64,000 nucleotides of DNA from Bacteroidota bacterium (GTDB lineage: Bacteria > Bacteroidota > Bacteroidia > Flavobacteriales > Flavobacteriaceae), in NCBI GenBank assembly GCA_021793375.1, contig JAJYSY010000001.1, forward strand, positions 1-64,000, read 5' to 3'. A program made the position numbers and the translations under genes. Shown here piece by piece: positions 23,198 through 41,956 of the stretch. The notes beneath the pieces were generated by a model, which saw only the letters and a list, made by a program, of their open reading frames with translations, ran no database searches and was not told the origin of the DNA. Numbering within the stretch: position 1 is the first letter of the stretch; each line of letters begins with the position of its first letter.

Positions 23198-23226
23198 AAA
23201 AAAGCCGGGAAAATCCGGCTTTTTTT
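23198..23226 (+). terminator. Rho-independent terminator after the DUF2911 gene
   Basis: Stem AAAAAAGCCGG (23198-23208) / CCGGCTTTTTT (23215-23225), loop of 6 nt, ending in seven T. It lies 22 nt after the stop. Confidence 0.85.
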
Positions 23227-23310: not shown

Positions 23311-24246
23311 ATGGAAAGAAGATTAAAAGATTATTTATTGATATTTTTAAAAGGAATAGGAATGGGAGCAGCAGATGCTGTTCCGGGAGTTTCCGGTGGA
23401 ACAATAGCTTTTATCTCCGGAATTTATGAAGAGTTGATTACCACTATTGGGAAAGTAGATTTCTCTTTGATAAAAACTTGGAAAAACAAAGGTTTTTCAG
23501 CGATGTGGAAGCAACTCAATGGAAATTTCTTGCTCGCTTTATTGATGGGAATAGGAATCAGTATTTTCAGTTTGATGCATGTGGCGAGTTATATGTTGGA
23601 AAATCACCCAATTTTAATTTGGTCTTTCTTCTTTGGATTAGTTTTAGCCAGTATTTGGTTTGTTTCTAAAGAAATAAAACGTTGGCATTTAGGAACTTTA
23701 TTGGTTTTGATTATCGGAGCTGTTACAGCGTATTTTATAACTACTTTAACTGCGGCACCCTCTGCTGAACACAGTAATTTTTATTTGTTTTTATCAGGAG
23801 CTATTGCAGTGGTGGCAATGATTTTACCCGGGATTTCCGGTTCTTATATTTTGGTGCTTTTAGGAACTTATAAAGAAATATCTGATGCTGTTACAGATTT
23901 GGATTTTAAAAAATTATTTTTTGTAGCCACAGGAATTATTGTTGGATTATTATCTTTTTCTAAAATTTTAAAATGGCTTTTTTCTAAATATGAAACATTA
24001 ACATTAGCAGCTTTAACCGGATTTATTATCGGGTCATTAAACAAGATGTGGCCGTGGAAAAAAACCTTGGAAGAAAAAGTTATAAATGGAGAAACACATA
24101 TTACAGCAGAACAATCCGTTTTACCGGCTCAATTTGAAGGAGATCCGAAAATTCTTGCCGCTTTTATTTCATTTTTAATCGGATTTCTGTTAATTTTATT
24201 CTTAGAAAACATAGCCAAAAAAATGAGCCCCTCCAATGAGAAATAA
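23311..24246 (+). CDS. DUF368 (PopT-like) membrane protein, copy 1
   Basis: Polytopic inner-membrane protein of 311 aa with about eight to nine helices. The family motif MGAADAVPGVSGGTIAF appears near residues 18-34, and a related LPGISGSYILVLLG near 172-185, which suggests two halves with inverted symmetry and re-entrant loops. DUF368 members (PopT) have been reported to return undecaprenyl phosphate across the membrane. That role for this copy is inference. Its last 11 nt overlap a second DUF368 gene, so the pair is translationally coupled. Confidence 0.92.
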   Translation: MERRLKDYLLIFLKGIGMGAADAVPGVSGGTIAFISGIYEELITTIGKVDFSLIKTWKNKGFSAMWKQLNGNFLLALLMGIGISIFSLMHVASYMLENHPILIWSFFFGLVLASIWFVSKEIKRWHLGTLLVLIIGAVTAYFITTLTAAPSAEHSNFYLFLSGAIAVVAMILPGISGSYILVLLGTYKEISDAVTDLDFKKLFFVATGIIVGLLSFSKILKWLFSKYETLTLAALTGFIIGSLNKMWPWKKTLEEKVINGETHITAEQSVLPAQFEGDPKILAAFISFLIGFLLILFLENIAKKMSPSNEK

Positions 24247-25255
24247 AACGCGAAATCTTAAAGATAGATTATTTCTGGTATTGAAAGGTATTGGCATGGG
24301 AGCAGCAAATAAAGTTCCCGGAGTTTCAGGAGGAATTGTTGCTTTTGTAGCTGGATTTTATGAAGAATTTATTTATTCGCTTCAAAAAATAAATGGAAAT
24401 GCTTTTTTATTACTCATCAACGGGAGGTTTAAAAGCTTTTTCAATTATATCAACGGAAGGTTTTTAAGCTTATTATTTTTGGGAATGATCATCAGTTTTT
24501 TTAGTGTTTCTAAAATACTGGATTATCTCATTACACATTATGAATTATATGTTTGGGCAGGTTTTTTTGGAATGATTATTGGCTCAATTTATTATGTAGC
24601 AAAAGATTTTAAATTAAAATCTTTTAGAAATATACTTATTATTTTATTGGGAATCGCCGGAGGTGTAGCCATCAGTATGCTTGAGCCTGCAAAAGAAAAC
24701 GATAATTTATGGTTTGTTTTTTTCTGCGGAATAATAGGAATCACAGGAATGACTTTACCAGGACTTTCCGGATCTTTTATCTTAATGCTGATCGGGAATT
24801 ATGTGTTGTTATTGGTAGATTCTGTCAATGCTTTATATGATACAATTGCACAAATATTAACATGGAATTTTTCTTTTGTATATGATGAAGAACATGTTAA
24901 CTTGCTCAAAGTTTTAGCTTCTTTTACATTAGGTTCAATTGTGGGGTTAGTTACCTTATCCCATGTTTTGGCTTATGTTTTAAAAAGATTTAAAGATCAA
25001 GTATATGCTTTGATTATCGGTTTTATAACCGGGTCTTTAGGAGTGGTTTGGCCGTGGAAAGAAAAATTGATAAGAGAAAATCAATTGGGAGAAATAGCTT
25101 TAGATAAAACAGGAGAACCCATAATTACTGATTATGTACGTTATTGGCCAAATTTAGGAGAAGTTTCGACTTGGTGGGCTATTTTTTTTATTTTTGTAGG
25201 AATTCTGATCGTATTTGGTCTGGAACACTACGGACAAAAACACATTGAAGTATGA
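24236..25255 (+). CDS. DUF368 (PopT-like) membrane protein, copy 2
   Basis: 339 aa paralogue of the preceding gene with the same topology. It repeats the two signature segments, MGAANKVPGVSGGIVAF and LPGLSGSFILMLIGNY. It also shares the GSLxxxWPWK element of copy 1 in the later half (GSLGVVWPWK here, GSLNKMWPWK there). It differs by a longer connector and C-terminus. Overlaps: 11 nt with copy 1 and 4 nt (ATGA) with aroE. The two copies may act separately or as a heteromer; the sequence does not decide this. Confidence 0.92.
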   Translation: MRNKTRNLKDRLFLVLKGIGMGAANKVPGVSGGIVAFVAGFYEEFIYSLQKINGNAFLLLINGRFKSFFNYINGRFLSLLFLGMIISFFSVSKILDYLITHYELYVWAGFFGMIIGSIYYVAKDFKLKSFRNILIILLGIAGGVAISMLEPAKENDNLWFVFFCGIIGITGMTLPGLSGSFILMLIGNYVLLLVDSVNALYDTIAQILTWNFSFVYDEEHVNLLKVLASFTLGSIVGLVTLSHVLAYVLKRFKDQVYALIIGFITGSLGVVWPWKEKLIRENQLGEIALDKTGEPIITDYVRYWPNLGEVSTWWAIFFIFVGILIVFGLEHYGQKHIEV

Positions 25256-25980
25256 AAACATACGGACTAATAGGAAACCCTGTAGAACATTCTTTTTCAG
25301 AAAAATATTTTTCTGAAAAATTTGAAAATGAAGGGATTGACGCAAAATATAAACTTTTTAAACTTGAAGACTTGACAGCGTTTCAAGAATTGTTGAAAAA
25401 AGAAAAAAAATTAAAAGGATTGAATGTAACTTCTCCTTTTAAAGAAAAAATAATTCCTTTTTTAGATGAAGTAGAACAACAAGCTAAAAATATCGGTGCG
25501 GTAAATACCATAAAATTTGAAGATGGAAAAAGAATAGGATATAACACTGATAGTTTCGGATTTCTGAAGTCACTATTTCCAATTATAGAAAAACAACATA
25601 CAAATGCACTGATTTTAGGAACAGGAGGAGCTGCAAAAGCTATTGCACAAGCTTTGAAATCTATGGGGATTGAATACCAAATGGTTTCGCGAACTCCTGC
25701 AGAAAATCAATTGGCTTATACAGACTTAACAGAAGAAATTATAAAGGAAAACTTGCTAATTATTAATTGTACACCTTTGGGAACTTATCCAAATGTTGAA
25801 GAATCTCCGAATATTCCTTATGATGGATTAACGCAAAAGCATTTGTTGTATGACTTGACGTACAACCCTGTGGTAACTCAATTTCTTGCACAAGGACAAA
25901 TGCGAAAATGTAAAATATTTAACGGTCAGAAAATGTTGGAATTTCAAGCAGAAAGAAGCTGGGAAATTTGGAATGAATAA
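25252..25980 (+). CDS. aroE: Shikimate dehydrogenase
   Basis: NADP-dependent reduction of 3-dehydroshikimate to shikimate in aromatic amino acid and chorismate synthesis. The catalytic Lys64 lies in NVTSPFKEK and Asp100 in YNTDSFGF. The nucleotide-binding loop is LGTGGAAKA. At 242 aa it is shorter than the roughly 270 aa E. coli enzyme, as usual in flavobacteria. It starts inside the stop of the second DUF368 gene (ATGA overlap), so it is probably translated from the same mRNA. Confidence 0.95.
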   Translation: MKTYGLIGNPVEHSFSEKYFSEKFENEGIDAKYKLFKLEDLTAFQELLKKEKKLKGLNVTSPFKEKIIPFLDEVEQQAKNIGAVNTIKFEDGKRIGYNTDSFGFLKSLFPIIEKQHTNALILGTGGAAKAIAQALKSMGIEYQMVSRTPAENQLAYTDLTEEIIKENLLIINCTPLGTYPNVEESPNIPYDGLTQKHLLYDLTYNPVVTQFLAQGQMRKCKIFNGQKMLEFQAERSWEIWNE

Positions 25981-41871: not shown

Positions 41872-41882
41872 CTGTTGTAGTG

Positions 41883-41956
41883 TGACCTCGGCAGGATTCA
41901 AACCTGCAACCTTCTGAGCCGTAATCAGATGCTCTATTCAGTTGAGCCACGAGGCC
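41883..41956 (-). tRNA. tRNA-Arg (ACG)
   Basis: The 74-nt minus-strand sequence folds as a cloverleaf: acceptor GGCCTCG / CGAGGTC with one G-U pair, D stem GCTC/GAGC, anticodon stem TCTGA/TCAGA enclosing TTACGGC (anticodon ACG), T stem GCAGG/CCTGC with TTTGAAT. The discriminator is A and CCA is not encoded. ACG, read as inosine-CG after deamination, decodes CGT, CGC and CGA. The 140 nt between it and the next gene upstream of 42100 hold nothing I recognise. Confidence 0.93.

Follow-up and report, generated by a model that had tools for sequence, protein, structure and literature searches.

Why should a flavobacterium carry two different DUF368 genes side by side, and do their products form one machine or two? 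The question is raised by a locus in a member of the Flavobacteriaceae (assembly GCA_021793375.1, contig JAJYSY010000001.1), and the window referred to below is the whole stretch of 64,000 nucleotides that was analysed. The Vibrio cholerae and Staphylococcus aureus members of DUF368 have been described as candidate translocases of undecaprenyl phosphate (C55-P) that are needed at alkaline pH: mutants are reported to have defects in alkaline C55-P recycling, and expression of either protein in E. coli lptD4213 to confer amphomycin resistance (PMC9876793). In Pseudomonas, a DUF368 protein is described as able to substitute for a DedA flippase, the two being nearly exclusive (PMC12893004), and DedA proteins of COG0586 are said to be rarer where DUF368 is present (PMC10127716). 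An earlier note on this DNA, made from the letters alone, had proposed that the two copies are coupled in translation and act as a heteromer or as two transporters of different specificity.

The layout is as that note described it, with two unequal DUF368 proteins, here called A and B, encoded by tandem, overlapping genes in one operon-like unit. All three genes lie on the + strand, and the overlaps of 11 and 4 nt agree to the base with the open reading frame coordinates:

23198–23225, − strand: inverted repeat of terminator type in the gap that separates A from the DUF2911 gene upstream of it (consensus scan)
23311–24246, + strand: gene A, acid-type (VCA0040-like) DUF368 protein of 311 aa (open reading frame, PF04018)
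24236–24246, + strand: A/B overlap of 11 nt (open reading frame ends)
24236–25255, + strand: gene B, Asn-type DUF368 protein of 339 aa (open reading frame, PF04018, clade)
25252–25255, + strand: B/aroE overlap of 4 nt (open reading frame ends)
25252–25980, + strand: aroE, shikimate dehydrogenase of 242 aa, the conserved neighbour 3' of B (PF08501, TIGR00507)

The aroE product scores 88.9 bits with PF08501 and 196.9 bits with TIGR00507, whose cut-off is 200.2. Between 23175 and 23311, a sigma-70-type scan found no promoter-like site and a spaced Bacteroidota-type promoter pattern found no match; a single promoter for A and B is plausible. No DUF368 copy beyond A and B was found in the genome (2.34 Mb in 101 contigs, 88.9% complete). 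These two are 35% identical, and the description of the copies as diverged therefore holds. The sole Rfam match above gathering score in the window is a tRNA-Arg (acg) at 41882–41956 on the − strand.

Both proteins are members of PF04018 (cut-off 26 bits), A matching with 317 bits over positions 1–238 of the 246-position model and B with 249.5 bits over positions 1–235. The claim that each keeps both PG[VIL]SG[GS] segments is borne out, and every residue found unchanged across the sampled members of both types is retained as well, so that A and B share a common core. The motifs, and the positions at which the two types part, are as follows:

23374–23376, + strand: Asp22 codon of A, the type-defining acidic residue (type comparison)
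23383–23400, + strand: first tip motif of A, PGVSGG, residues 25–30 (invariant alignment positions; helix break in the model)
23827–23844, + strand: second tip motif of A, PGISGS, residues 173–178 (alignment, model)
24043–24045, + strand: Lys245 codon of A, before WPWK (type comparison)
24308–24313, + strand: Asn25-Lys26 codons of B, counterpart of Asp22-Ala23 in A (type comparison)
24317–24334, + strand: first tip motif of B, PGVSGG, residues 28–33 (alignment, model)
24758–24775, + strand: second tip motif of B, PGLSGS, residues 175–180 (alignment, model)
24797–24799, + strand: Asn188 codon of B, in GNY (type comparison)
24803–24931, + strand: longer B stretch between GNY and the conserved Gly that follows (spacing 44; the window's A has 21)
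25043–25045, + strand: Val270 codon of B, counterpart of A's Lys245 (type comparison)

AlphaFold2 models of the two proteins (mean pLDDT 94.1 for A and 93.6 for B) predict the same plan twice in each: a helix pair broken at PG[VIL]SG, then three long helices with short ones between. In the model of A, the first motif is the break between helices 5–23 and 29–35. Asp22 and Asn25 are predicted to lie in the last turn before the first helix break, the tip position being taken from the secondary structure of the models. No solved structure related to A was found by sequence at E values up to 1, and the search for fold relatives in the PDB gave nothing significant: the best Foldseek E values were 0.08 (A) and 0.8 (B), and the best fold matches, both ZIP transporters, had Z scores of 7.1 (A) and 6.8 (B), in the range that the tool calls common.

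The pair is ordinary for its family. Among 299 Flavobacteriaceae genomes, 292 have a DUF368 match; by hand count, 283 carry at least two, 9 carry one and 7 none. Third matches occur in some, and those inspected were fragments at contig ends or weak matches, hence rejected as further copies. The tandem order A-B is found in 187 of 199 distinct family loci, chosen by score, and aroE follows on the same strand in 183 of these 187. The 12 others comprise 9 single-copy loci, most of them deliberately fetched, 2 in which B is cut by the contig end (L273, L275), and 1 (L105, Lacinutrix himadriensis) in which A is split into two overlapping frames by a frameshift or a sequencing error, with B and aroE intact. 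As a check on bias, we took 50 further genomes with lower scores, and in all 50 the two matches are adjacent on one contig and strand. The DUF368 tandem is thus an old pair common to nearly the whole family, and a recent local duplication found only in this strain, which the earlier note had named as a refutation of its proposal, is therefore ruled out. In the named collection, the nearest locus is that of the metagenome-assembled genome 'Bacteroidetes bacterium DX1.bin50'. Over the C-terminal stretches that were compared, its A and B do not differ from those of G022, which belongs to the window's genus; the next-nearest loci belong to Mesonia, Aquimarina, Tamlana and other Flavobacteriaceae. 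In genus g127 of the family, 7 of the 8 sampled genomes have no DUF368 match (G127, G314, G336, G342, G376, G381 and G386, the eighth being G347), and all 8 have a DedA match of at least 60 bits.

Outside the family, DUF368 is matched in 42 of 119 genomes of the class, one of them below the cut-off, with a single match in each except the window's own, and genomes of other classes with DUF368 also have one match each. At the level of the order, 55 of 98 genomes have a match and two copies occur in families f1, f2, f3, f9 and f13. The copies are neighbours in f3, f9 and f13, and in both sampled f2 genomes A and B are on separate contigs; one f10 genome has two near-identical copies of B. The proximity to aroE extends to the single genes. 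A alone precedes aroE in 26 of 34 class loci and 15 of 17 order loci, and B alone in 5 of 7 and 14 of 16, so that aroE comes after a DUF368 gene, in the same orientation, at 31 of 41 distinct class loci and 29 of 33 single-type order loci, a widespread arrangement in Bacteroidia (the order seen at 25252–25980 of the window and at loci L142–L169 and L206–L213). Elsewhere in the phylum, in other classes, the count is 0 of 14 loci.

The spacing of the genes bears on the proposed coupling. With the start of B taken as the ATG nearest to the profile start, A and B overlap at 80 of 189 junctions, are separated by 0–30 nt at 99 and by more than 30 nt at 10; B overlaps aroE at 159 of 182. Translational coupling of A and B is plausible in that 179 of the 189 junctions show an overlap or a distance of no more than 30 nt. 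The 11-nt overlap described in the earlier note, however, is present at only 4 of the 189, and the varying length rules it out as a conserved signal. No A-B fusion was found among the open frames listed in the surveyed genomes, a 543-aa open frame in the sister genome G022 being merely an open stretch upstream.

A and B represent two types that are set apart by the residue three positions before the first PGVSGG, which is acidic in all 264 A-type sequences (Asp in 255, Glu in 9) and Asn in all 217 B-type sequences. Asn188 is likewise present in all 217 B-type sequences and in none of the 264 A-type ones. The position of A's Lys245 is Lys in 242 of 264 A-type sequences, just 3 of the 14 A sequences from other classes having it, and in 0 of 217 B-type sequences, 207 of which have Val or Ile. 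The spacing after GNY is 44 in 187 of 190 family B sequences and 21 or 35 in 192 of 195 family A sequences. Lys26 had to be discarded as a mark of all B: it is present in 188 of 190 family sequences, but of the 20 order-level ones only 6 have it and 14 do not, and all 7 class-level ones are without it.

The types also separate in phylogeny. In a tree of 121 sequences, the second copies of the family, the B-only families and two class-level singles form one clade (SH-aLRT 100). With the type-specific columns blanked, a single branch still separates the Asn-type sequences from the rest, both in a quick tree (129 rows; SH-aLRT 99) and in a careful one (89 rows; UFBoot 100, SH-aLRT 100, 100% of 200 bootstrap trees), and each of the two trees needs one change. 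What we call here the Asn-type DUF368 subfamily is thus a single clade. B is under strong constraint and is not decaying. In pairwise comparisons of genomes within two selected subsets, its distances fall below those of A for 2849 of 2926 pairs and for 2028 of 2415; one subset was chosen by likeness to B, the other by family-profile score. There are also irregular cases: G128 and G234 (L258, L259) combine a strong DedA with a basal, short-spacing B that clusters with sequences from other Bacteroidia families, and this B is possibly a foreign replacement of the native pair; G208 has an odd A together with a strong DedA.

The genomic relation to DedA offers a further view of the family. By hand count, a strong DedA match (at least 60 bits) is present in 38 of the 43 order genomes that lack DUF368 and in 8 of the 55 that have it. 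The two families tend to replace each other, a pattern that rests on few clades, since f4, f15 and genus g127 supply 37 of the 38; strict exclusion is ruled out by the 8 genomes that have both. In f10, DedA is unmatched in 10 genomes that have DUF368, and the 4 of these that were typed have B only, so B may be able to serve alone there. Five other f10 genomes lack both DUF368 and a strong DedA, so that f10 may not need a flippase of these families, which limits the argument that B serves alone. No DedA match was found in the window's genome. Because its genus mate G022 has the DUF368 pair plus a DedA of 63 bits, this absence may be an assembly gap. BacA (PF02673), matched in 54 of 59 order genomes with the window's own counted among the misses, also has no match in that genome (G000), probably again an assembly gap given its completeness of 88.9%.

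The reading we favour, with a probability of roughly 0.45, is that A and B are separate flippases, most likely of C55-P, with A the canonical, VCA0040-like protein and B an acid-less one that would move the same lipid with a different proton or pH coupling. Each protein would fold alone into two similar halves, each made up of a re-entrant hairpin and the three long helices after it, and the hairpin tips PGVSGG and PG[IL]SGS would form the putative substrate site; in a presumed membrane orientation, both would return the spent lipid carrier, a polyprenyl phosphate, to the cytoplasmic leaflet. A would be the canonical form, with an acidic first tip like that of VCA0040, which is needed at alkaline pH. 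In DedA proteins, acidic residues at the first re-entrant tip are described as the mark of UndP flippases driven by the proton-motive force, and a scramblase-like branch as one without acidic first-tip residues (PMC10127716). By analogy with these subfamilies, A may be a coupled flippase and B may work without the acid, moving the lipid with no titratable group and hence with an altered proton or pH dependence. Together the pair could cover a wider range of conditions, as DUF368 and DedA do in Vibrio cholerae. The role of the acidic residue in coupling is a guess, because the residue is not family-wide. Outside the phylum, the position is Asp in Vibrio, Halomonas and Roseburia, Asn in Fusobacterium, Ser in Acetoanaerobium and Leu in Latilactobacillus. 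Distant members (aligned at 23–32% identity) have Leu, Ser or Asn; the Haladaptatus row, truncated or misaligned at this point, is uninformative.

A bolder form of this account, which we regard as speculative and rather unlikely in full, is that the Asn-type is an unrecognised DUF368 branch, distributed over several families of Bacteroidia, in which a proton-binding acid was lost and which works as an uncoupled, scramblase-like or pH-independent C55-P translocase, holding the place of DedA in the Flavobacteriaceae beside the coupled acid-type protein in one transcription unit.

The earlier note's suggestion of two specificities would have A recycling C55-P and B moving another lipid, such as another polyprenyl phosphate, a glycosylated lipid or a non-phosphate lipid. 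That the copies differ in function is supported, if indirectly, by the fixed residue difference at the motif and by the occurrence of each type alone elsewhere; that they differ in substrate we consider unlikely. The fixed or near-fixed differences close to the motifs (Asp22 to Asn25, Lys245 to Val or Ile270, and Asn188) and the spacing of 44 in most Flavobacteriales B would fit a changed substrate, particularly as tip residues in DedA are thought to track substrate class (PMC10127716). On the other side, the residues invariant in both types are retained in B, and in B-only genomes without a DedA match B would be the sole C55-P flippase of a known family. Gene context points to no other lipid, both types sitting before aroE. 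None of this favours another lipid for B above a single lipid with different coupling.

The heteromer, in its strong form an obligate or main A-B flippase whose coupled tandem genes secure equal amounts of the two subunits, is improbable. It would account for the tight tandem in nearly all family loci and for the close junctions, and UptA, a DedA protein with the same proposed function, is described as being in monomer-dimer equilibrium (PMC11474028). However, each gene is kept without the other. Within the family, G023, G251, G116 and G347 have only A (as does G062, whose A lies near a contig end) and G187 has only B; beyond it, all 13 distinct f6 loci are A, and all fetched distinct loci are B in f7 (3), f8 (2), f14 (3) and f10 (5). 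In f2 the two genes are on different contigs, and no fusion joins them in the frames listed. Moreover, the A proteins of the family form two clades, A and A', with three in neither, and either can fill the A slot: on a FastTree of B from 186 genomes the A/A' label changes 8 times, at least 7 of these changes being required by branches with good support, as though the occupant of the A slot had been swapped. Nor does covariation, which the earlier note had offered as a check, single out the pair. Strong couplings number 25 per 10,000 pairs for A-B against 37 for A-aroE and 35 for B-aroE, in what is a weak test (147 genomes, an effective number of only 91, a reduced alphabet, and a within-protein value of only 28 for B, with 75 for A and 84 for aroE), and partial distance correlations are 0.30 for A-B, 0.32 for A-aroE and 0.53 for B-aroE. 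Given the single-type lineages and a covariation not above the aroE controls, an obligate A-B heteromer is unlikely; a facultative A-B complex may still be compatible with this separability.

Finally, we think it scarcely probable that A and B are redundant paralogues kept for dosage with a neutral residue switch. That either type can go missing would fit this, but the switch has no exception in 481 sequences and B varies less between genomes than A does, which does not resemble relaxed redundancy.

Relative to the literature searched, what is new is the clean split into acid-type and Asn-type proteins, each able to stand alone and the two paired in nearly all sampled Flavobacteriaceae. A full-text search, covering titles and abstract openings of papers outside subscription journals, found no treatment of the pair in Flavobacteriia or of the Asn-type branch. 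As separate flippases that differ in coupling, A and B would offer a natural pair with a fixed acid-to-amide change beside the motif, whose members also occur alone, and thus a ready test of how C55-P flippases are energised. The pair could also explain how the lipid carrier is recycled in the many Flavobacteriaceae without a strong DedA.

Among known systems, the VCA0040-type proteins (NF052564, the polyprenyl-phosphate transporter equivalog; PF04018) are the closest, and both A and B match nearly the full model. With 378.8 bits for A and 229.4 bits for B, both fall below the equivalog cut-off of 400 bits. A shares the acidic tip and is 46% identical to a Vibrio campbellii homologue over 87% of A's length; in B the acidic position is taken by Asn, and the segment that follows GNY is longer. 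PopT (NF052563), which we take to be the Staphylococcus type, belongs to the same Pfam family and is matched more weakly (A 125.6, B 90.4 bits), far below its cut-off, also 400 bits.

A more distant resemblance is to BacA/UppP, the C55-PP phosphatase, described as having two re-entrant pairs, each followed by three membrane helices (PMC5852022), and the helix plan predicted for A and B resembles the interdigitated inverted repeat reported for it. The BacA loops are given as PxSS and PGxS (PMC5852022), those of A and B being PGVSGG and PG[IL]SGS, with Gly in place of the Arg of BacA's PGxSR. The proton-accepting Glu21 of BacA (PMC5852022) and Asp22 of A, which precedes Pro25, each stand three residues before the loop proline; aligned on the serine, Asp22 and Glu21 (E. 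coli, L354) are one residue apart. The BacA structure 6fmt superposes on the model of B with a Z score of 4.6 and an rmsd of 2.8 over 91 residues. Profile comparison with hhalign gives probabilities of 4.2% and 0.6%, which lend no support to homology, and we treat the likeness as a lead. The DedA flippases of C55-P (COG0586, UptA) are a different Pfam family, PF09335 being absent among the Pfam matches of A and B (E 0.001). They have the same proposed job as DUF368 proteins, tend to alternate with them in genomes, and are described as having two re-entrant hairpins and subfamilies split by acidic tip residues (PMC10127716, PMC12893004).
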